NCBI GenBank assembly: GCA_947630945.1
Contig: CANRJN010000004.1
Span: 1 to 38,403, forward strand
Length of the DNA: 38,403 nt
DNA from: an uncultured Bacilli bacterium
GTDB taxonomy: Bacteria > Bacillota_I > Bacilli_A > RF39 > UBA660
Direction: 5' to 3'
Both the position numbers and the translations under genes were made by a program. Positions 14,790 through 35,579 of the stretch are shown in pieces; position 1 is the first letter of the stretch, and every line of letters begins with the position of its first letter. The notes beneath the pieces were generated by a model, which worked only from the letters and a program-made list of their open reading frames with translations, did not search any database and was not told the DNA's origin.

Positions 14790-14818
14790 TTGATATTTAT
14801 AAATATAATTTGTATAAT
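14790..14818 (+). promoter_or_regulatory. Strong promoter of the first surface-protein pair
   Basis: -35 TTGATA (14790-14795), 17-base spacer, -10 TATAAT (14813-14818). The expected transcript start is near 14825, which rules out an in-frame ATG at 14810 and supports the start at 14864. Confidence 0.75.
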
Positions 14819-14863
14819 TTTATTAGTAAAAGTAATAATAAAGAAATTAATAAAGAGGTAGAT

Positions 14864-15550
14864 ATGAATTCAAAAAATATTAAAACTTTAATTATAATAT
14901 TGTTTATATTTATTTTTTGTCCTAATATAAATGCACTTTGTTATGATGAAGAATTAAATGAATGGGCTACTAATATAGAAGTATTATTTCAAAAAGATGA
15001 AAGATCAGTTGCCGCTACACAAGAAATTACTTCTGAAAATGAATATTTTGCATATTTTTTATCTATTACTCCTATAAGAAATGACATAAAGATAATCGTC
15101 ACAGATGGAAGTGGTAATAAGGCAGAAGGAAAAGAATATTCTGATGTAGATTTATATGGTGTTGGGTGCTTTGCAAATCCTGAAGAAGAAACATATTTAA
15201 TTGAAGTTTATGGTGCAGAAGATAGTGCTTGTCCAAATGATCTTTTAAAAACATTGAAATATACAGTTCCTAGATTTAATAGATATATAAAATCTGAATA
15301 TTGTGAAAAATATCCTGAACATGAATTATGCGAAACTTATACTAATAAAACAAAAAATTTAGAAGAAAAAGATTTTAATGATGTATTAGGTGAATATGAT
15401 AGAATAATTAAAGAAAAAGAATTAACGACAAGTAAAATATTTAAATTAATTATTGAATATGGTATGTATGTTTTAATTCCTTTTATAATAATTTCGGTTT
15501 TTTATATAACTAAAATTATAAAGTATAAAAAGCAAGAAAGAGAGAAATAA
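14864..15550 (+). CDS. Small exported protein with C-terminal membrane anchor, copy 1
   Basis: The start at 14864 has AGAGGT just upstream. A signal peptide (about residues 6-24, ending INAL) is followed by an extracellular domain beginning CYDEELNEWAT, with conserved FAYFLSITPIRND, VTDGSGNKAEGK, YGVGCF and SACPNDLLKTLKYTVP segments, and then YCEKYPEHELCETYTNKT. A membrane helix (about 196-215) and a positive tail (KYKKQEREK) end the protein. The topology matches a type I membrane protein or a sortase substrate, but no LPxTG- or NPxTx-like motif is visible before the helix. It is about 60 percent alike by eye to the gene at 19719. It lies 4 bases before a giant secreted protein and probably holds or matures it. 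Confidence 0.8.
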   Translation: MNSKNIKTLIIILFIFIFCPNINALCYDEELNEWATNIEVLFQKDERSVAATQEITSENEYFAYFLSITPIRNDIKIIVTDGSGNKAEGKEYSDVDLYGVGCFANPEEETYLIEVYGAEDSACPNDLLKTLKYTVPRFNRYIKSEYCEKYPEHELCETYTNKTKNLEEKDFNDVLGEYDRIIKEKELTTSKIFKLIIEYGMYVLIPFIIISVFYITKIIKYKKQEREK

Positions 15551-15554
15551 AAAT

Positions 15555-18500
15555 ATGAAAAATAATAAGATATTAATTGCGTTAATTATATTATTATTTG
15601 CTTTTGCTTTTACATCTAAAGTATTTGCAGGTGTAACTAATGATGTATGTGAAACATTAACGATGTCATCTTGCGCAGAACCAAATAATTTTCAAACAAA
15701 TATTGCAGTTTGTAGACCAGAATGGGATGGAACATTTTATAGTGTAACACATGGCAATTTTTATTCAGCAGTGGAAGCAGAATTACATAAGGCACATTAT
15801 ACACAAATTCCATCATCTGCAGGTAATAAAGGGGGAAATGTTACCGTTGCATATTATTATTGTGGTGGAAGTGATGAAAATTCTAGAATTTCAGCGAATG
15901 TTACATGTGATATGAGTGCAAAGAGAGGGGTATTACATACAAGTGCAAAAGAAGTATCTAAAGTTAATGGCGATTGTGCACGTTCTGGAACTAATACTAA
16001 AAATGTATTTAATACTGGGTGTCCATCTGGATATTCTACTGCCAATGTCATTTTTTATAGTAAAGGGAAATATTTGCGAGTTTGTCAAAAAACCACATGT
16101 TATGAGTATAGTAAAGTATGTCCACCTGGTAGTCATGAAGCCGGAGGAAAATGTTATACTTGTTCTGGAATAACAAATCAATTTGATGCTGCTAGTTTAA
16201 CTTGTCATGCTGCTTGTCCAGAAAAAACATCTTACAGCAATGGAATATGTAGTTATTCAGATACAATAAATCTTTTCTATAGTACTGTAGCAAGTTCTTT
16301 CCAATATAGTAGGACAAAATTTAAAGAAAGTGCTGAAAAAGATTGTGAAGAAATATTAGATAAAATACCTTCTGGTAAAGGATATGCACCAATTAATGTT
16401 TGTAATTGTGGATGGCCACAATATAACCTTGATTGTAAGAAATTTGTATGTCTTAGATATGTAAAAGAAACTATTGGTGTTCATACTCAAAGTTTTAAAA
16501 CAGATAATGGTTCCCCAGCATATTGTGTAAATCCAACGAGTGGATTTCAAAATAGTTCTAAAAATTATCAAGTAGATAAAGACTTTGATGTAACTAATTG
16601 TTCTACAAGTTATAGTACAATAGATTGTGGATATGCAAATATTTTAATTGAAGGAAATTATAATAATATAAGTAAAAAGACAATAGAATTAGCCATGAGA
16701 CTTTGGGGAGCACATTCAGGCCAAGGTGGATATGATAGTATTGGAATTTCTTCTTACAGTGGTAGTGGTGATAGTTGTATTCCAAATGTTACATTTAAAT
16801 CAGATGCACCAAATATTTATAAAGAAACAGAAAAGTATATTTGGCAACATTTTATGGAAGATAAAACAAATAGTGAAAAATTAAAAAATAAGACTTATAT
16901 AGATGTTAGAGAAGCAACAAACTTATTTTTTGAAATATCATGTGAAAGTTCACAATTAAGTTTAGTTTGTGGAAAAGTAAATACATATAAAGAAGCATTT
17001 GCGTTATTCTTTAATACAGTATTCGGTAATAAGTATATGTTTGAACATTTAGATTATTTGTTTAATAATGAAGTTAATACTAAACCTACTGATATAGAAA
17101 TTGAATCAGAAAAAGATTCAACAGAAATCAAATTAGTTTTTGATAGAACAATAAAAAACTTAGAAAAAAAGCAGTATGATTGCAGTAAAATCGAAGAAGA
17201 TGAAAAATTACCTGATAATAAGAAAAATTATCCTGAATTAAAAAAAGAAGACAGAAATTACATTAAACAATATTGTAATGTAAAAGTTGATCAATTATTT
17301 TTAGTTCATCCAGATGGAACAACAGAAGAAATAACTAAAGATGTGGATAATGATAATAAAGTATATGATGCAAGTAAAGGAACATTAATAGTAAAATCAA
17401 AATATTATGCGGTTTGTACTTCTGAAAATAAAAATAGATATTCAAAATATCAAGTGACTGTTAAATATAAAAAATCAAAATCATCTGGAAGTATAAAAAA
17501 ATATTTTTCTTGTGCTAGTAATCCTGAAAAACAACAATTTATGTTTGCTTTTGTTTATGATAAAAATTCTAATTCTAATATAGAAACTGGCGAAGATGTG
17601 AAAGATTATTCTACACAAGACTATAGTTTTACCATAAATTGTAATGGAACCTGCACAAATTATAATATAGTAACCTCTGTTCCAAAGTGTGGTGATAAAG
17701 ATAATAATATTTATACTGGTTATGTAAAAGACCCATCATTAAAATGTATTGTTAACATGGCTTCTCAAGATATTAAAAATTTTTATGATTATAGTGATTA
17801 TTTTAAGGTAAATAAAAATTTATGTAGAGTATATTGTAGTGATGAAGTAAATTATTATATAGCAGATAAAGTAACAATAAACTCAGGATTATCATTTAAA
17901 TATGATATACATCCAATTAATTTAACATTAAATCAAAATGATAAAAAAATATCAAGTATAGTAGAAGAAAAGAGAAGATGCGTGTCAGAAATCTTTTATA
18001 ATAATAATTTTCCAGATAATATAAATTGGAAAAAAATATATGGAATTACTGATAAAGATTTAAAGGAGGCTTTAGAAAATACAACACCAGAAATTAAAAA
18101 TATAAAAGATTTATTAACAGTGTTAGTATTTAAAGCACAAAATGAAGGTGGAAGAGATGAAAATATAAATCAAATAATATATGATTTATATAATTGTAAT
18201 TTTCTAAAAAATATACCAGTAAGGCAACCTCAAGAAGATGAAATAGGTAATCTATACAAATATTTAGAAGAAAAATTTAAAAAGGAAAATAATTATGGAT
18301 TATTAAAAAATACAACAACTGAAATAACATATGATGGTGGAGCAGAATATATTAATTCACAAAACAAATCAACATTTGTTGGAGCCAATTCAAATGATAT
18401 TAGTGTAGATGAAACAATTAAATCGTATTTGTCTGATCTTACATATTGTGCTGGAGATAACTGTCTGAATTATGATTCTACTGAAACAGAAAAAAACTAT

Positions 18501-19424
18501 GAATATAGTGGATTTGAAAAAGAAAGTTCAAAAATTTATAATTCATTAGAAGATGAAATGATAAATAAAATTAATTTGTCAGGTAGCAGATTAAACAATA
18601 TTATGAAGATTAAAATACCAATTAATGATTATGCAATGTTTGATACATCAATACAAATGGATTTTTATAATACAAGTGAATTTCAAGTTCAAGCATATAC
18701 TGGTAAAGTATTAAATAAAAAAGATAATACTAATTCACAGGCATTGATTGATTTAGAAAAATATTCATATCCAATGTCAAAAAATGCTTATAATAAATGT
18801 GAAAAAATAAACGATACTATAAGTAGATGTGATATAACACAGAAATTAATAAATATGTCAACTTTTTATAGAAATAAAATATCAGATTCATTTCAAAAAG
18901 AAATTTTAAGTAATGATTTTACAATATTCACATGTCATATCGATGTTAAAGTTCCTGAAATAACAATAAAAAAAGATGAATCTGCTGAATCAATAAATAG
19001 AGGAGAAGCAACTTTATATAGGAATGTAGATTTGTCAAATCTATTTCCAAATGATGCATCAATGAAAAATAATAAATCAAATTGGAACACAGATTATGGA
19101 ATAAAAGCAAAAGAAGAAATAGAAAAAACCTCTGATTTAATAAATACAAACAAATTTTTAGAATATCGTATAGTGTTAACTCCAGAAACAATAAAAGAAA
19201 TAAAAAGTTACAATCGTAGAATGGAAAATAATGGTGGATACACTAATAATACATTAATTTGTAGTGAAGAAGAAAATATAATAGATAATAAATTTCTTGG
19301 ATGTAAAAGTACATTTATTCAAAATATATCAAATGGTCAAGAAAATTTTGGAATAGATGTAACAAATAATAATAAATTAGATGGTTTATCTGAATATACA
19401 AAAGAAAAGAAAAATATTAAATAA
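15555..19424 (+). CDS. Giant Cys-rich secreted surface protein 1 (1289 residues)
   Basis: A signal peptide (residues 1-26, ending KVFA) leads to a large extracellular protein with many Cys. Residues about 175-250 are a dense Cys module (CPPGSHEAGGKCYTC and further pairs) resembling eukaryote-like EGF or furin-type repeats. Residues about 320-385 carry PAYCVNP (Cys324) and IELAMRLWG (Glu378), which align with a thioester-like pair in the paralogue. The rest alternates beta-rich segments shared with the paralogue: GYVKDPSLKCIVNM, EEKRRCVSEI, TYDGGAEYIN, YSYPMSKNAYNKCEK. There is no C-terminal membrane helix or sorting signal; it ends in YTKEKKNIK. It has a weak ribosome site and is probably coupled to the small gene. 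Adhesin or scaffold is my inference. Confidence 0.8.
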   Translation: MKNNKILIALIILLFAFAFTSKVFAGVTNDVCETLTMSSCAEPNNFQTNIAVCRPEWDGTFYSVTHGNFYSAVEAELHKAHYTQIPSSAGNKGGNVTVAYYYCGGSDENSRISANVTCDMSAKRGVLHTSAKEVSKVNGDCARSGTNTKNVFNTGCPSGYSTANVIFYSKGKYLRVCQKTTCYEYSKVCPPGSHEAGGKCYTCSGITNQFDAASLTCHAACPEKTSYSNGICSYSDTINLFYSTVASSFQYSRTKFKESAEKDCEEILDKIPSGKGYAPINVCNCGWPQYNLDCKKFVCLRYVKETIGVHTQSFKTDNGSPAYCVNPTSGFQNSSKNYQVDKDFDVTNCSTSYSTIDCGYANILIEGNYNNISKKTIELAMRLWGAHSGQGGYDSIGISSYSGSGDSCIPNVTFKSDAPNIYKETEKYIWQHFMEDKTNSEKLKNKTYIDVREATNLFFEISCESSQLSLVCGKVNTYKEAFALFFNTVFGNKYMFEHLDYLFNNEVNTKPTDIEIESEKDSTEIKLVFDRTIKNLEKKQYDCSKIEEDEKLPDNKKNYPELKKEDRNYIKQYCNVKVDQLFLVHPDGTTEEITKDVDNDNKVYDASKGTLIVKSKYYAVCTSENKNRYSKYQVTVKYKKSKSSGSIKKYFSCASNPEKQQFMFAFVYDKNSNSNIETGEDVKDYSTQDYSFTINCNGTCTNYNIVTSVPKCGDKDNNIYTGYVKDPSLKCIVNMASQDIKNFYDYSDYFKVNKNLCRVYCSDEVNYYIADKVTINSGLSFKYDIHPINLTLNQNDKKISSIVEEKRRCVSEIFYNNNFPDNINWKKIYGITDKDLKEALENTTPEIKNIKDLLTVLVFKAQNEGGRDENINQIIYDLYNCNFLKNIPVRQPQEDEIGNLYKYLEEKFKKENNYGLLKNTTTEITYDGGAEYINSQNKSTFVGANSNDISVDETIKSYLSDLTYCAGDNCLNYDSTETEKNYEYSGFEKESSKIYNSLEDEMINKINLSGSRLNNIMKIKIPINDYAMFDTSIQMDFYNTSEFQVQAYTGKVLNKKDNTNSQALIDLEKYSYPMSKNAYNKCEKINDTISRCDITQKLINMSTFYRNKISDSFQKEILSNDFTIFTCHIDVKVPEITIKKDESAESINRGEATLYRNVDLSNLFPNDASMKNNKSNWNTDYGIKAKEEIEKTSDLINTNKFLEYRIVLTPETIKEIKSYNRRMENNGGYTNNTLICSEEENIIDNKFLGCKSTFIQNISNGQENFGIDVTNNNKLDGLSEYTKEKKNIK

Positions 19425-19690: not shown

Positions 19691-19718
19691 TTAATTAATG
19701 TAAAAGTAGGTGATTAAA

Positions 19719-20423
19719 TTGAAAAAACTTATTTGCTCATTTTTATTAATATTTTCTTTACTAATAATGTTTGATGTTAATGCATTATGTTATGATGAAG
19801 AATTAAATGAATGGGCAGTAGATGTTAATGTTTCTTTTAAAGAAGATAAAAGATTTGTACCTATGGGTGAAAATTCATCTGAAAATGATGAATTCTTTGC
19901 TTATTTCTTATCTGTTAGTCCTATTAGAGACGACATTATTATTAAAGTTACTGATGGTTCTGGAAATATTGCAGAAGGAAAATCATATAATATTGATTTA
20001 GATAATGATGGTAAAAAAGAAGATGAATATGGTGTTGGGTGCTACAATAATTTAGATGATGAAACATATATAATAGAAATTTATGGTAAAGAGAATAGTG
20101 CATGTCCAAATGAATTATTAAAAACTTTAAAATATACCGTACCCCAATATAATGATTATATTAAAAGTGAATATTGTGAAAATTATCCAGATCATGAATT
20201 ATGTCAAACATATACAAATAAGACTAAAAGTATGACAGAAACTGAGTTTAATGATATATTAGATAAATATGATAAAGAGATAAAAGGAAAAGAATTAACT
20301 AGTAGTAAAATATTTAAAATAATAGTTGAATATGGTATTTATATTTTGATACCATTAGCACTAGTTTCTATATATTATATTATTAAAATAGTAAAATTAA
20401 AAAAAGAAGAAAGAAATAGATAG
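19719..20423 (+). CDS. Small exported protein with C-terminal membrane anchor, copy 2
   Basis: A paralogue of the protein at 14864 with the same plan: signal peptide (ending VNAL), CYDEELNEWAV, FAYFLSVSPIRDD, VTDGSGNIAEGK, YGVGCYN, SACPNELLKTLKYTVP, YCENYPDHELCQTYTNKT, a membrane helix and a basic tail. A TTG at 19719 is the preferred start because AGGTGA lies 6 bases before it; a GTG at 19710 overlaps that site. It differs by an inserted acidic loop DLDNDGKKED (residues about 93-102) that looks like a calcium-binding loop. It ends 1 base before the second giant protein. Confidence 0.8.
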   Translation: MKKLICSFLLIFSLLIMFDVNALCYDEELNEWAVDVNVSFKEDKRFVPMGENSSENDEFFAYFLSVSPIRDDIIIKVTDGSGNIAEGKSYNIDLDNDGKKEDEYGVGCYNNLDDETYIIEIYGKENSACPNELLKTLKYTVPQYNDYIKSEYCENYPDHELCQTYTNKTKSMTETEFNDILDKYDKEIKGKELTSSKIFKIIVEYGIYILIPLALVSIYYIIKIVKLKKEERNR

Positions 20424-20424
20424 T

Positions 20425-23400
20425 ATGAAAAATAATAAATGTAAATTAATTTGTTTTGTATTTTTATTTATCTTTTTAATGCCAAGTATAAATGCTGGTT
20501 TTAATATGGATGAATGTAATGTAAGCATCGATATGAATGAAATCAAAAAATGGGCTACAGGATATAATGTTAGAGTTCCAATATGTGATATTGAAAAAGC
20601 AGAAAAAAATGGAGAATCTCCTTTAGAATCTAAAAGTTCATATTCTGCTGCATTAGCAACTAAAGATGAGTGGATTAAAGTTGAAGTTCCTGATATCGCT
20701 GATAAAAGTATAACAGAGACATGGATAAAAAGATGTGATAGGTCTGATGCCAGAGTAGAATATACTGCTAGTTGTAGTTATACTAAAAATATAGATGGAC
20801 ATTGTTATGATCGAAAAAATAAAAAATGGTATATTTGTCCAAGAACAGAAAGAGGTACATATAATGAAGGACCTATTACAGTAACTTCAGAACAAAATCC
20901 TGTATCTAATTGTAATATTATAAATGGTGTAACGAATTGTACTTGTACTAAAACTTATACATTTATGTGTCCCGTTGTTTCTTGTGTAGAAAAAGAAGAA
21001 GAAATACAAGCATGTGCTCCAACTTTTAATGTAAGTGGCGATCCTGCGTATTGTGTAAATCCAAATCAAGGTTTTGCTGCTAAATTATCAAATGGAAATA
21101 ACTATATGGAAGCAGATTTTAATGTAGATGCTTGTGAAAGTAGTTATAGTACAATAGATTGTGGATTTGCTAATATATTAATTGAAAGTGCATGGCAGAC
21201 AAATAGAAATAATTATAAAATATCAGATCATCAAACACAATTAGCCCTTAGATTATGGGGTGTTCATTCTGGACGAGGAGGATATGATAGAACAGGTCTT
21301 GCTAATGTTTATGGTCAAAATTGTGATATATATGTAAATTATATTCAAAAAGTTAATATTTATAAAGAAACTCATAATTATATATGGAAAACATATTTAG
21401 AAAAACTTAGTGGTAAAGATTATATAGATGCAAGTAAAGCAAGACTTGACTTTGAAGAAATATCTTGTAGTAAAGCAGATTTAGGGGTAATTTGTGGTAT
21501 TGGAAAAAATTATTTAGAAGCATTCTCATTATTCTTTAATACTGTTCTTGGAAATAAATATATGCATGAACACTTAAATGATTTAGTGGGATTAGATATA
21601 AATACTAAACCAATTAATGCTGTAATTGAAACTGTTGAAGAGTCTTCAAGATTAGAATTAAGTTTTGAAAGATCAGTTCATACAACAACTGAGGAAACAT
21701 ACAATTGTAATGATATAAAAGATGAAAGTAAATATCCGGAATTAACAAAAGAGCAAAGAGAATACATATCTAATTATTGTAATGTAATAGTAGAGCATGT
21801 ATATGTAGTTGATACTAATGGAAATAAGACAGAAATAAGAAAAGAAGATGCTGATAAATTTTATGATTCTAAAAAAGGTACATTAGTAGTTGAAGTAATT
21901 CCTTTTGCAGTTTGTGAAGTTGATAAAGGTAAAACATACAATTACTATCAAGTAATTGTTAATTATAAAAAAACTACTGCAAGTAGAAGTGTAAAAAAAT
22001 ATGTAGCATGTACTTCAAATAGTCAAAATCAGGTACTTTATGCATTTGATAGTACAACTATTATAAAGGAAGATACAAGTCCTGAAATTACTGAAAATAT
22101 AACAGAATCTAATGATTACAAAATTAATATTAATTGTGCAGGTGCATGTAAAGATTATAATTTAAGAACAAGTGAAGCAAAATGTAGTAATCAAAAAGAA
22201 TATAATAAACATTATACAGGTTATGTAAAAGATCCATCACTAAGTTGTATAATAAATATGGGATCAAATGAAAACAAAAATTATTATGATTATAGTGAAC
22301 ATTTTAAAGTTAATACTAATTTATGTAGAGTATATTGTAGTGATGAAGTTGATTATTACATAGCAGGTAGAGTAAATACTTTTTCTGGATTCTCATTTAA
22401 ATATGATATAAATCCAGGTGAAATATTAAAGAAATCTGATAATACTCTTACAAGTATCGTTGAAGAAAAGAGAAGATGTGTATCAGAAATATATTATGAA
22501 AATGAATTTAAAAATAATCCTGATTGGAAAGGATTATATGGAATAACAGACAAAGATTTAGAAAAATTACCAGGTGATGATAAACAAATTAGAAATTGGA
22601 GAGATTTGTTCTTTGTATTATTTAATAAATCATTAGAAGAAGGCCAAAGAACAGAGAACTTAAATGAAATTATTTGGGATTTATATAATTGTAATTTTGT
22701 AAAAGATATACCATCTACTATTAGAAAACCTAAAAATGATACTATTGGTAATTTATATGACTATATGTCAAAAATGTATAGTAAAAATTATGGATTAATA
22801 GCAGATAGTGATGTTCAAAATACATGGATAGATAATATTACTTATGATGGTGGGGCAGAATACATTAATAGTTCTAATACTGTTGGTTCTAATTCGACCG
22901 ATATAGATATTTTAAAAGATTTTAGTAATACTATTTCTGATGTTAAATATTGTGATGGATTTGGATATACATGTTTAGAATACGACAGCAAAAATGAAAA
23001 ATATACATATGATGATAAATTTGGTGATTTTAATACAGGTGAGTCTGGAATAAATATTATTTCTAATAGTGGAAATACTTATTCTAAAGAACTAAATAAT
23101 ATTATTAGTACTAAATTACCAACAAATGATTATGCTATGTTTGAAATAACTACTCAAATAGATTTCTATAATTCTAGTAAATTTGAAACAGAGGCATATA
23201 CAGGTAATGTTAATAAAATTAAAGATAATGAAAATAGTAATTATACTAAATTAGATGATTATTCTTATCCAATGTCAAAAAATGCCTATAATAGATGTAC
23301 TAAAAATGGTGAGATTGCTAGTTGTCCAATTACTCAAAGATTTAGTAATATATCATTATTTTATAGAAATAGAGTGTTAGACTCATTTGTTAGTAAAGTA

Positions 23401-23889
23401 AAAAGTAATGAGTTTACAAAATTTGATTGTACTATTGATGTTGATATTCCAGAAATTGAAGTAGATAATAAAAATTCTAAAACGATTTATAGAAATATAG
23501 ATTTAACAAATTTATTTCCTAGTAATGTTTCAAGTAATTCAAACTGGTTTACTGAAAAAGGATTAAATGCTAGAAAGGAAATTGAAGAATCTGCAGAAAG
23601 TATTAATAGAAATGAAAAAGATTATTTGGAATATAGTATAAAACTTACTCCAGAAGTTATAAACAATATTAAATTATATAATGCATCAAATATATCAAAT
23701 AAAACTTCTATGGGTTATATAAATAATACATTAAAAAATTGTACAATAGAAAATGGAATATTTATAGATTGTAAAAGTGATTTCTTACAAGGCATTAGAA
23801 GTGGAAGCAATAATTTTGGTATAGATACAAGTGTTGGAAAATATGATGGTATATCAGAATACACAAAGAAGAAAGAAGGATTAAATTAA
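20425..23889 (+). CDS. Giant Cys-rich secreted surface protein 2, possible thioester domain
   Basis: This 1154-residue paralogue of giant protein 1 has a signal peptide (1-24, ending INA). It lacks the EGF-like Cys module but keeps CTCTKTYTFMCPVVSCVEKE just before the shared region. PAYCVNP gives Cys210 and HQTQLALRLWG gives Gln272. A Tyr-Cys followed by a Thr-Gln-x-Ala motif near a Trp is how Gram-positive thioester domains bind host amines. The Cys-Gln distance (62) and the Gln-Trp spacing differ from well-known examples, so this is a candidate only. The remainder mirrors protein 1: GYVKDPSLSCIINM, EEKRRCVSEI, TYDGGAEYIN, YSYPMSKNAYNRC. No membrane anchor or sorting signal is visible; it ends YTKKKEGLN inside a terminator. 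Confidence 0.8.
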   Translation: MKNNKCKLICFVFLFIFLMPSINAGFNMDECNVSIDMNEIKKWATGYNVRVPICDIEKAEKNGESPLESKSSYSAALATKDEWIKVEVPDIADKSITETWIKRCDRSDARVEYTASCSYTKNIDGHCYDRKNKKWYICPRTERGTYNEGPITVTSEQNPVSNCNIINGVTNCTCTKTYTFMCPVVSCVEKEEEIQACAPTFNVSGDPAYCVNPNQGFAAKLSNGNNYMEADFNVDACESSYSTIDCGFANILIESAWQTNRNNYKISDHQTQLALRLWGVHSGRGGYDRTGLANVYGQNCDIYVNYIQKVNIYKETHNYIWKTYLEKLSGKDYIDASKARLDFEEISCSKADLGVICGIGKNYLEAFSLFFNTVLGNKYMHEHLNDLVGLDINTKPINAVIETVEESSRLELSFERSVHTTTEETYNCNDIKDESKYPELTKEQREYISNYCNVIVEHVYVVDTNGNKTEIRKEDADKFYDSKKGTLVVEVIPFAVCEVDKGKTYNYYQVIVNYKKTTASRSVKKYVACTSNSQNQVLYAFDSTTIIKEDTSPEITENITESNDYKININCAGACKDYNLRTSEAKCSNQKEYNKHYTGYVKDPSLSCIINMGSNENKNYYDYSEHFKVNTNLCRVYCSDEVDYYIAGRVNTFSGFSFKYDINPGEILKKSDNTLTSIVEEKRRCVSEIYYENEFKNNPDWKGLYGITDKDLEKLPGDDKQIRNWRDLFFVLFNKSLEEGQRTENLNEIIWDLYNCNFVKDIPSTIRKPKNDTIGNLYDYMSKMYSKNYGLIADSDVQNTWIDNITYDGGAEYINSSNTVGSNSTDIDILKDFSNTISDVKYCDGFGYTCLEYDSKNEKYTYDDKFGDFNTGESGINIISNSGNTYSKELNNIISTKLPTNDYAMFEITTQIDFYNSSKFETEAYTGNVNKIKDNENSNYTKLDDYSYPMSKNAYNRCTKNGEIASCPITQRFSNISLFYRNRVLDSFVSKVKSNEFTKFDCTIDVDIPEIEVDNKNSKTIYRNIDLTNLFPSNVSSNSNWFTEKGLNARKEIEESAESINRNEKDYLEYSIKLTPEVINNIKLYNASNISNKTSMGYINNTLKNCTIENGIFIDCKSDFLQGIRSGSNNFGIDTSVGKYDGISEYTKKKEGLN

Positions 23890-23909: not shown

Positions 23910-23966
23910 CATATATTAAAAAAATAAAAATTATGATACAATAATATTATAAAAGTGGAGGTGTAT

Positions 23967-24464
23967 ATGAAATCAAAACTTTCTAATAATTATTTTTTTG
24001 TGTTAATGGTAAGTATATTAATAATTGTAGTTACTCTTTGCATTAGAGGTATATATTTAAAAATACAAGATAAACAAATAAATAAATCTATTTTTTCTGA
24101 TAATAAAATTAGTCAAATTAATTTAGATGACATTGATTATGCATTAAATGAAATAAATGATGCAATATTATATGTAAGTTATACTGGATCTAAACAAATA
24201 AATAAGATGGAAAAAAGATTATATAAAGAAATTAAAAAGAAAAATTTAATTGATAAAGTAATATATTTAGATGTAAGTAATAATAAAAATGAGTATATTG
24301 ATAAATTAAAGAATAGGTTTCCTAATGTAAAATTTGAAATAGAAAGCGCGCCTTTACTAATTTATACTAAAAATGGTGAGGGTGTTTATGCTGTTAGCAG
24401 TGAACTTAAATTAATCAATTATAAAGTTTTAGACGATATAGTAAATAAATATGGAATTGAATAG
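23967..24464 (+). CDS. Membrane-anchored thioredoxin-fold-like protein without CxxC
   Basis: An N-terminal signal-anchor helix (about residues 10-32) precedes an extracellular domain. DAILYVSYTGSKQINKMEKR looks like the thioredoxin first strand, active loop and helix, but the loop reads YTGSK where CxxC would be. VIYLDVSNNK and the later SAPLLIYTKNGEGVYAV fit the next strands, with the conserved cis-Pro before the fourth strand. If correct it is redox-inactive and may bind substrates as a chaperone. Start 23967 has GGAGGTG 3-9 bases upstream. It sits between the Cys-rich proteins and the sortase gene. The fold call is inference from strand order. Confidence 0.6.
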   Translation: MKSKLSNNYFFVLMVSILIIVVTLCIRGIYLKIQDKQINKSIFSDNKISQINLDDIDYALNEINDAILYVSYTGSKQINKMEKRLYKEIKKKNLIDKVIYLDVSNNKNEYIDKLKNRFPNVKFEIESAPLLIYTKNGEGVYAVSSELKLINYKVLDDIVNKYGIE

Positions 24465-24480: not shown

Positions 24481-24524
24481 AATTAAAATTGTGTTATTAT
24501 TAATATAGAATAAGGAGAATTAAG

Positions 24525-26180
24525 ATGAAAGAATATATTGTAATTACAATTTTAGATAATATAGTATTCTTTGATTATAGAACTATTAATGATGATGAAA
24601 AAGTTTTTGTAAATAAAAATAGTTTATATAAAGATTCTCTTTATTATACATTAAAAAAATATAAAAAAAATATAAAAAAAATAATTAATTTAATTAAAGA
24701 ATTAAATAAAAATGTAAGTTCTTTTAGAATATTAAAACTTATTACTTTTAAATATGTAATTCCAATAATAAATGAATTAAATATAGAAAATTTAATATTA
24801 GATTTCTCTTCAACTCTTGATTTATCTGATTATGAGTTATTTTTAAATACTAATTTAAAAAATATATATTGTTATTATATGCCAAGAGGAGTAGTTAAAA
24901 AGTTTGAAAGTAATGGAACTAAAATATATAAAAGTAATTTAAAAGAGGTATCTTTTGAATTTTTAAATCAACAAGATGCTTTTGAAATAGATACACTATA
25001 TTATAAAAAAGTTATTAAAATAAAGAAAGAATATCCTAATTTAATAAATGATTTAGAAGAGTTTTTAAAGATAAATTATAATTTAAAAGCAATTCATATA
25101 TATGTTTATTCAAAAGAATTAATTGAATCAATTGTTGATTTAGTTAAAAATGATGAATCAAGAAATGTAATTATATTTTTGCATCAAGGATATGATAAAG
25201 GTAATTTTATAGAAGAAAATTTTGATTGGTTAAAAAAAATAAGTAATAAATGTAGAGAAGATTATACTTGTGAATTTAGAATTATATATTCTAACTCATT
25301 TTTAAAAAATAATTTATTTAAACAATTAACATTTAATAATTTAAAATTAATATCAGTATTATGTATTTATGTTAGTTTAGTTTGTTTAGCAATAGTTAAA
25401 GCGTATGATTATATTGAACAAGTTAGTATTGATACATTAAATAGTACATTAATAAATGAATCTTATGCTTCAAATAATACAAATACAGATGAAGAAGATG
25501 ATGAAATTCTTAACAACTTACCAACAGTTAGTGAAAACTTAGAACTTAATGATAATGAAGTTGAGCCAAAAGAAGAGGAAGAAAAAGATCAAATTAAATC
25601 TAAATATTCATTTGAAAATTCACTTAAATCATTAAAAAAGATTAATAAAGAAACTATTGGATATTTAATAGTTAATAATACAAATATTTCTTATCCAGTA
25701 GTGCAACATAGCGATAATAATTATTATTTAAAATATGATATTTACAAAAAAAGAAATAGTATGGGATGGATTTATTTAGATTATAGAAATAATTCTAAAA
25801 CTCTAGATGATAACAATATAATATATGGACATAATATGTCAAATGGTACAATGTTTGGTACTCTTAAAAAAGTTTTAAATTCTACATGGAGAAAAAATGA
25901 AGAGAATTTAATAATATCTTTTGATACAGAAAGTGGTAAATATAGATTTAAAATATTTTCTATTTATAAAGTAGACTATACAACTGATTATTTAAAAGTA
26001 AAATTTGATTCTAAAAGTGAAAAAAAAGATTTTATTAAATTAATTAAAGGAAGAAGTAGTTATAAATTTAATACTGATGTAGGTGAAGATGATAAAATAT
26101 TAACATTATCTACATGTTCAGGTAATAATAATAAAAGACTAGTTGTACATGCTGTATTATTGAAAGGAGAAGAGAAATGA
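24525..26180 (+). CDS. Class B-like sortase fused to a large N-terminal cytosolic domain
   Basis: The C-terminal third is a sortase: YPVVQHSDNNYYL, IIYGHNM with His436, TLSTCSG with Cys531 and KRLVVHA with Arg538 make a complete catalytic triad, and TLSTC plus the GTMFGTL segment resemble class B. Before it are an acidic linker (about 310-345) and a membrane helix (about 275-295). Residues 1-272 have no signal peptide and would lie in the cytosol. This alpha/beta domain (LILDFSSTLDLSDYELFL, VIIFLHQGYDKG) is not one I recognise. Ordinary sortases have only a short cytosolic tail. AAGGAG precedes the ATG; an extended -10 TGTTATTAT (24492-24500) is the likely promoter. The stop overlaps the next gene (ATGA). 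Its substrates are not obvious in this window. Confidence 0.85.
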   Translation: MKEYIVITILDNIVFFDYRTINDDEKVFVNKNSLYKDSLYYTLKKYKKNIKKIINLIKELNKNVSSFRILKLITFKYVIPIINELNIENLILDFSSTLDLSDYELFLNTNLKNIYCYYMPRGVVKKFESNGTKIYKSNLKEVSFEFLNQQDAFEIDTLYYKKVIKIKKEYPNLINDLEEFLKINYNLKAIHIYVYSKELIESIVDLVKNDESRNVIIFLHQGYDKGNFIEENFDWLKKISNKCREDYTCEFRIIYSNSFLKNNLFKQLTFNNLKLISVLCIYVSLVCLAIVKAYDYIEQVSIDTLNSTLINESYASNNTNTDEEDDEILNNLPTVSENLELNDNEVEPKEEEEKDQIKSKYSFENSLKSLKKINKETIGYLIVNNTNISYPVVQHSDNNYYLKYDIYKKRNSMGWIYLDYRNNSKTLDDNNIIYGHNMSNGTMFGTLKKVLNSTWRKNEENLIISFDTESGKYRFKIFSIYKVDYTTDYLKVKFDSKSEKKDFIKLIKGRSSYKFNTDVGEDDKILTLSTCSGNNNKRLVVHAVLLKGEEK

Positions 26181-26815
26181 AAAAAATATTATTAATAATT
26201 TTAATGTTAATACCATTTGTGGTTTATGGTGCTGAATGTGATCATAATAAACATGATGAATATGCTACGTTTGCTAATAATGTAAATTATGATACAGATT
26301 TTAATGTTGATAAAAGAAAATATACTATAAACATATATAATATTGTAAAAGGATTATATGTAGAATATGATGGTAAAAAATATGAAAGAAATTCTAATAA
26401 TGAAGTTATAATCGATAATGTAGATGAAGGAACTTATATGACAATATATGTATATGGAGATGATAATTGTGATTCAACTCTTAGAACTCTATTTGTTAAT
26501 TTACTTTATTATAATAAATTTTATGGTACTGGAGTTTGTGTTGGATATGAAGATAAATTAACTATGTGTAACTCACAATTTACTACTAGTTTAGTAACAG
26601 AAGAAATATTACAAACTGCCAAAGAAAATTATGATAATACAATTATTCAAGATGCTGATAAGCAAGAGAATAATAATTCAGATGTAACATTATATAGTAA
26701 AATAAGAAGTTTTGCATTGAATTGGGGAATAAAATTTGTATTAGTATTGGTTACTATAATACTTTCTACAGCATTTTATAGTAGTAAATATAGAAAACTT
26801 AAACATGGTATCTAA
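26177..26815 (+). CDS. Small exported protein with C-terminal membrane anchor, copy 3
   Basis: A signal peptide (about 1-19, ending VYGA) leads to an extracellular domain starting ECDHNKHDEYATFANNVNYD, a diverged version of the CYDEELNEWAT start of the other two small proteins. It has YVYGDDNCDSTLRTL (compare EVYGAEDSACPNDLLKTL) and a late GYEDKLTMCNS segment. A membrane helix (about 184-203) and a basic tail (KYRKLKHGI) follow. It has no giant partner and instead overlaps the sortase gene by 4 bases, which suggests it works directly with the sortase. The relationship to the other copies is inferred from matching Cys positions and layout. Confidence 0.7.
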   Translation: MKKILLIILMLIPFVVYGAECDHNKHDEYATFANNVNYDTDFNVDKRKYTINIYNIVKGLYVEYDGKKYERNSNNEVIIDNVDEGTYMTIYVYGDDNCDSTLRTLFVNLLYYNKFYGTGVCVGYEDKLTMCNSQFTTSLVTEEILQTAKENYDNTIIQDADKQENNNSDVTLYSKIRSFALNWGIKFVLVLVTIILSTAFYSSKYRKLKHGI

Positions 26816-27465: not shown

Positions 27466-27492
27466 TGATTGTAGTAAAGGATGGTGAGAAAA

Positions 27493-27981
27493 ATGAAAAT
27501 AAATAAAGCATATAAGTTTAGATTATATCCAAATAGAAAACAAGAAGAATTAATAAATAAAACAATAGGATCATCAAGATTTATATATAATTATATATTA
27601 AGAAGAAAAACAAACGAGGAGATAGTAAAGAAGATAATAGAAAGTCATGATATAATAGTAAGTGAAAATTTACAAGTAAATAAAATGATAGAAAAAGAAA
27701 ATAAAAGTTTAAGAAAATTAATAATAAATTCCACAATGTCAGATATAATAAGAAGAATAAAATATAAATGTGATTGGGAAAATAAAGAATATTATCAAGT
27801 AGATAGATACTATGCAAGTAGTCAAATATGTTCAAGATGCGGTAAAATAAAAAAAGATATGAAAGATATAAATAAAAGAGAATATGAATGTGATAATTGT
27901 GGATTAAAAATGGACAGAGATTTAAATGCAAGCATAAATATTATGACAGAGGGATTATTTAAAGAATATAGATATGAATAA
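27493..27981 (+). pseudogene. tnpB: Internally deleted TnpB (IS200/IS605 accessory nuclease)
   Basis: The N-terminus KAYKFRLYPNRKQEELINKT is the normal TnpB start (residues about 4-38). It then jumps to the RuvC-II region (IVSENLQVNKM with the Glu), followed by IRRIKYKCDWENKEYYQVDR, the zinc finger CSRCG ... CDNCG, and the final Asp in DRDLNASINIM. The middle of the protein, including the helical lobe and the first RuvC Asp, is missing, leaving about 162 residues where 370-400 are usual. The reading frame across the junction is open. The ATG at 27493 has GGTGA upstream. It cannot be an active nuclease; decay is the default reading. No TnpA gene is nearby. Confidence 0.85.
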
Positions 27982-35210: not shown

Positions 35211-35579
35211 ATGTTAAATTTAATAAATTTATTAGATTATAGTAGTGGAGAAGCATTATGTTCTGATTTAGCACCAGTATTAAAAATGGTAGGTATAGTT
35301 TATTGGGGAATTATGGTTGCTGTACCAATTATCTTAATTATAATAGGTATGATGGATATGGCAAAAGCAGTTGCTGAAAAAAGTGAAGATGATATTAAAA
35401 AAGCACAAAATAAACTTATTAAAAGAGCAATTGCTGCTGTTATCGTATTCTTAATTGGTGTTATTGTATCAGTAATAATGAATTTAGTTGGTCATAATGA
35501 ATATAAGACTTGTATGGAATGTATAACAGGACCATTTGGAAAAGAATGTAAAGCATTAGTTAAAGATGCTAATGACTAA
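35211..35579 (+). CDS. Two-helix VirB2/TrbC-like membrane protein
   Basis: A 122-residue protein with two membrane helices (about residues 27-48 and 69-92) joined by a charged loop (DMAKAVAEKSEDDIKKAQNKLIKRA). This matches TrbC/VirB2-type pilins and related small proteins of Gram-positive conjugation systems. Cys17 near the N-terminus and a short Cys pair at the end (CMECITGPFGKEC) are unusual. It has a consensus promoter and its own terminator (AAAGGGTT 35595-35602 with AACTCTTT 35609-35616), so it is made in quantity. It may be a second filament subunit or an accessory membrane protein of the Tad-like machine. Confidence 0.6.
   Translation: MLNLINLLDYSSGEALCSDLAPVLKMVGIVYWGIMVAVPIILIIIGMMDMAKAVAEKSEDDIKKAQNKLIKRAIAAVIVFLIGVIVSVIMNLVGHNEYKTCMECITGPFGKECKALVKDAND

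Follow-up and report, generated by a model that had tools for sequence, protein, structure and literature searches.

A sortase usually has at most a short tail on the cytosolic side of the membrane. In the window, that is, the whole stretch of 38,403 nucleotides analysed here, from an uncultured Bacilli bacterium, one sortase gene encodes 272 residues before the membrane helix. This raises the question of what such an N-terminal domain is, in which genomes it occurs, and what it could do next to an enzyme that works outside the cell.

A class B sortase with a long N-terminal part

The open reading frame 24525-26180 is one gene, with its ATG at 24525 and its stop codon at 26178-26180 (Table 1). 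The source assembly is fragmented (156 contigs), as would suit two genes joined by a frameshift, an assembly error or a wrong start. Against this, the gene has a good ribosome-binding site, the nearest in-frame start codons after its ATG lie near residues 119 and 219 rather than 270, and the gene occurs as one unbroken frame in the genus and in 51 genera of the family. Since the frame is kept so widely, we regard the reading as two genes or as a wrong start as already refuted at the level of sequence conservation, its remaining probability being negligible. Neither the separate start near residue 270 nor the joining frameshift named as dangers in the original prediction was found.

Table 1. 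Features of the fused sortase gene and of the gene that follows it, in positions of the window
Feature	Positions	Strand	Remarks
Ribosome-binding site AAGGAG	24512..24517	+	7 nt 5' of the ATG; read from the sequence
Fused class B sortase gene	24525..26180	+	551 aa
Predicted cytosolic N-terminal alpha/beta domain	24525..25340	+	residues 1-272; no known family
Transmembrane signal-anchor helix	25347..25403	+	about residues 275-293; positive side inside
Extracellular class B sortase domain	25590..26165	+	residues 356-547; H436, C531, R538
Partner protein	26177..26815	+	212 aa; signal peptide, ectodomain, C-terminal membrane helix; overlaps the sortase stop (ATGA)
Codons of the partner's cytosolic tail KLKHGI	26795..26812	+	

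The protein is a class B sortase, an assignment that rests on the catalytic domain. The whole protein scored 167.2 bits against the NCBIfam class B sortase model (TIGR03064), above the curated cut-off of 153.75, and Pfam PF04203 also matches its C-terminal part. The predicted triad proved to be complete: H436, C531 and R538 fall in the columns that hold the catalytic His, Cys and Arg in solved SrtB chains, and each of these positions shows at least 95% conservation over 48 homologues. In agreement with this class, the best Foldseek matches of the predicted sortase part, whose pLDDT is modest across much of its length, were SrtB chains (E = 8.5e-14 to 2oqw). With SrtB (TIGR03064; PDB 2oqw, 4ux7, 1ng5) the protein shares the catalytic domain, the triad and the signal-anchor topology, and an NPxTG-type motif is likewise found in its likely substrates within the GTDB family; the candidate substrates of the NPxTN/NPxTG type that it would transpeptidate are those suggested by gene adjacency. 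The difference lies in the long part before the membrane helix, whereas an ordinary SrtB of about 250-300 aa has no room for a folded cytosolic domain. Ordinary SrtB of about 240-300 aa is present in many of the genomes that also have the fused sortase. One such gene lies elsewhere in the window's own genome (G000:C1; L003, L170:2666-11476), between two likely substrates with APKTAD and NPKTLD signals, and is preceded by the gene of a 1962 aa protein.

The fused protein contains one strong hydrophobic stretch, which starts at residue 273, and the membrane helix follows a conserved juxtamembrane stretch, NNLFKQ. The net charge is +3 over the 20 residues before the hydrophobic stretch and -4 over the 20 residues after it; the N-terminus is therefore predicted to lie inside, with residues 1-272 in the cytosol. 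Whole-protein and profile searches with residues 1-272 gave no family match in Pfam or NCBIfam, a domain profile built from 17 relatives had no match among PDB sequences, and comparison of the domain with itself by profile revealed no clear internal repeats. The original prediction was right in describing a cytosolic domain of unclear fold that is unusual for a sortase. AlphaFold2, run with 8 sequences, modelled residues 1-272 as beta-alpha repeats with a mean pLDDT of 73. Averaged over ten-residue blocks, pLDDT was 71-92 for residues 1-130 and about 45-76 for residues 131-260; the term folded, which had been applied to the entire domain, therefore has good support for the first half and moderate support for the second. 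Within the genus, residues 151-272 are more conserved than residues 1-150, and the columns conserved among the 48 homologues are N30, F146, Y160, D176, F180, N184, L187, Y255, N263 and Q267.

A fold search with the predicted structure of residues 1-272 returned weak matches, mostly half TIM barrels, with a best Foldseek E of 5.1e-3, while VIA gave a best Z of 7.5 over 100 residues and a weak 5.8 to an F-box leucine-rich-repeat protein. As far as the model can be relied on, these matches fall within the range of common arrangements, and we name no fold. The weak likeness of the beta-alpha repeats to parts of TIM barrels, and a juxtamembrane stretch that could pass on a change, would suit a sensor in the cytosol that gates the sortase across the membrane upon binding of a small ligand. 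We consider such a sensor quite improbable, as the domain has no recognised nucleotide-binding or catalytic signature and its structural matches are no closer than common arrangements would give.

Distribution of the fusion and the Tad locus

The search for the same fusion elsewhere, which had been proposed as a check, found it in 17/17 other genomes of the window's genus (one copy is split over two contigs and one is cut by a contig end), and in 99/291 genomes and 51/150 genera of the GTDB family. Searches across the class and the phylum yielded no fusion outside this family, and no relatives of the domain were found in viral contigs. Nor was a free-standing copy of the domain found: frames that bear it are about 515-612 aa long, a few shorter ones having been set aside, which were cut by contig ends where checked. 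In literature searches of partial coverage, no class B sortase was described as having a folded domain in the cytosol. A survey describes the orders RFN20 and ML615J-28 as being without srtA/B sortases, unlike RF39 (PMC10868615), which would make RF39 the likely home of the family.

It had also been suggested that the domain could link the sortase to the Tad ATPase or TadZ. Within the window's genus, a DUF6568 gene and the gene at 26177 flank the sortase gene, with a DUF5411 gene and then the Tad operon downstream. In other genera the fused gene stands mostly in a different setting with no Tad genes nearby, and Tad proximity is limited to the window's genus and two others: in g110 (L090) the fused sortase has Tad genes next to it, and in g164 (L088) it overlaps a TadZ-like gene. 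Because a TadA relative is present in 260/282 genomes of the family, as against 99/291 for the domain, Tad cannot be the general purpose of the domain, and the suggested link is not supported as a general one, with most fused genes lying away from tad genes. Kinship to TadZ or TadA was not borne out either. The domain as a TadZ/CpaE relative received an hhalign probability of 0.1%, and profile comparison revealed no kinship with TadZ, TadA, CpaB, DUF6568, DUF5411 or the family of the 26177 protein.

The DUF6568 protein just upstream of the sortase (23955-24464) recurs in the genus and has an N-terminal hydrophobic stretch. Within the Tad locus of the window, between DUF5411 and CpaB, lies a TnpB/OrfB-like transposon piece of 166 aa (27481-27981; PF07282, PF12323), probably a fragment, and the TadZ-like gene is closely followed by that of a 122 aa membrane protein (35211-35579) with a sub-threshold match to a T4SS pilin family (PF18895). 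The TadZ-like gene of g164 (L088 1-10892) precedes genes for small T4SS-pilin-like proteins and genes that look VirB4-like by eye. One TadA match (G272:C2:46622-47653) falls inside what is listed as an open frame of 24,789 aa, which probably stems from masked sequence or a run of N.

Sorting signals beside the fused gene

Outside the window's genus, the fused gene often stands head-to-head with the gene of a small secreted protein that ends in a sorting signal. These partners have unalike ectodomains and conserved ends, made up of a [NTSV][PASK]xTG-like motif, a membrane helix and a cytosolic tail, K-[LMFIV]-x-[KRN]-[IV], at the C-terminus. By profile, a matching signal was found within 3.5 kb in 49/98 fused loci outside the genus, 42 of the 49 being head-to-head; among genomes left out of profile building, it was found near the fused gene in 19/68. 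About half of the fused loci are without a matching signal nearby, in part owing to contig ends or weak profile matches. The strict tail pattern was present in 24/30 partners and in 0/25 other sorting signals, which came from the window's genus or from loci elsewhere that are unpaired with a fused sortase. With training genomes excluded, strong matches to the tail-type signal occurred in 28 genomes with the fused sortase and in 1 without it. The tail pattern was picked after the partners had been seen and the genomes are related, so that the statistics of both comparisons are descriptive.

Two genomes illustrate the pairing. G257, assembled as a single contig, has one match to the Pfam sortase model, the fused sortase, and four sorting-signal proteins, all NPETG, whose tails fit the pattern or nearly do, ending in KFFRV, KFFRL, KFYNI and KLFRL. 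G158 has three paralogues of the fused gene, and next to each lies a separate signal. Together with the genome that has one sortase, the head-to-head gene pairs provide ready-made sets of enzyme and client.

From these patterns we propose that a class B sortase of this kind would check its client on both sides of the membrane. On the outside, the catalytic domain would cleave the NPxTG-like motif and join the client to the wall. On the inside, the 270-residue N-terminal domain would serve as receptor of the short basic tail at the client's C-terminus, beyond its membrane helix, the target in most genera being K-hydrophobic-x-[KRN]-[IV]-COOH, and binding of the tail would hold the client, still membrane-borne, beside the enzyme. 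Both the binding of the tail and its effect on sorting are deduced here from sequence patterns. In favour of the proposal, the domain is placed, by charge, on the same side of the membrane as the tail ends. The domain may respond to an inside signal, as in the original prediction, and the conserved tails of substrates and partners offer a more specific candidate for such sensing.

The same observations could be accommodated by an N-terminal domain that serves as a localisation or assembly module and gathers the sortase at the septum, the Sec translocon or the Tad machine via cytosolic proteins, the tails merely holding substrates in the membrane. The charged tail of sorting substrates is indeed known and treated as an element of membrane retention (PMC5569036), and the overlap with a TadZ-like gene in g164 points in this direction, as does SrtE1 of Streptomyces coelicolor, whose cytoplasmic extension is required in vivo and was proposed to contact other proteins (PMC5148588). 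However, a tail that served simple retention would not be expected to end in a fixed K-hydrophobic-x-[KRN]-[IV], and this ending is absent from other sorting signals within the family. Nearly all genomes of the family have Tad genes, but only some have the domain. We therefore regard a localisation module as rather unlikely.

SrtE1 is the nearest precedent for a cytosolic part on a sortase: its N-terminal cytoplasmic portion, like that of the fused protein, is long, measuring 100-200 residues in relatives (PMC5148588). It differs in being a class E enzyme with LAXTG as its motif, in contrast to the class B catalytic domain here; its extension is described in terms of acidic and basic stretches, and the passages considered mention no folded domain (PMC5148588). 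Clostridium difficile SrtB is closer to the situation in G257, being a single class B sortase with substrates built of motif, helix and tail (SPKTG/PPKTG); there, however, the tail is a retention element, and no tail-reading domain is described in the enzyme (PMC5569036, PMC4155245).

The partner in the window's genus

Returning to the tail-receptor proposal, the gene that overlaps the sortase stop in the window's genus encodes a protein with a tail of the form K[LIV][KQE]H[GK]I in 16/16 evaluable loci. This tail resembles those of the other partners but is one residue longer, and no sorting motif precedes the helix; the usual Thr before the helix looks like a helix cap. A search of the small proteins of the window's Tad locus found no sorting motif, and the NCBIfam sortase B target model had no match over its cut-off in the window's own genome. 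We take the 26177-26815 protein to be a putative docking partner and not a substrate. NPKTG proteins do occur elsewhere in genomes of the genus, including the window's own (C68), with the tail pattern absent from them; the domain there must therefore have another client. In this genus, the domain probably docks on the K[LIV]xH[GK]I tail of the 26177-26815 protein, and such docking would tie the sortase to the surface proteins of the window's Tad locus.

The missing sorting motif in this partner and the missing tail in the NPKTG proteins of the genus count against the reading of tails by the domain, as does the fact that ordinary sortases function without any such domain. With these points weighed, a check of the client on both sides of the membrane, with the cytosolic domain as tail receptor and docking on the 26177-26815 protein in this genus, seems to us to have slightly less than an even chance. 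Somewhat more tentatively, we suggest a new domain, found only on class B sortases of one uncultured Bacilli family, that may read the tail of the sorting signal, so that one reading outside the cell and another inside would together decide the substrate, and that may have been redirected to a Tad-locus membrane partner in the window's genus. The motif alone does not fully explain how a sortase picks its substrates among similar motifs. A domain that reads the opposite end of the signal would, if true, be a direct answer to the problem of substrate choice and offer a new handle for protein sorting.

Further upstream, the window encodes two large secreted proteins of 1289 and 1154 aa with no Pfam match (15555-19424 and 20425-23889), each preceded by a small membrane protein (14810-15550 and 19710-20423, respectively). 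By eye, both large proteins have a CVN ... [QE]xAxRxW pair that recalls thioester domains; the [QE] residue is Glu in 15555-19424 and Gln in 20425-23889.
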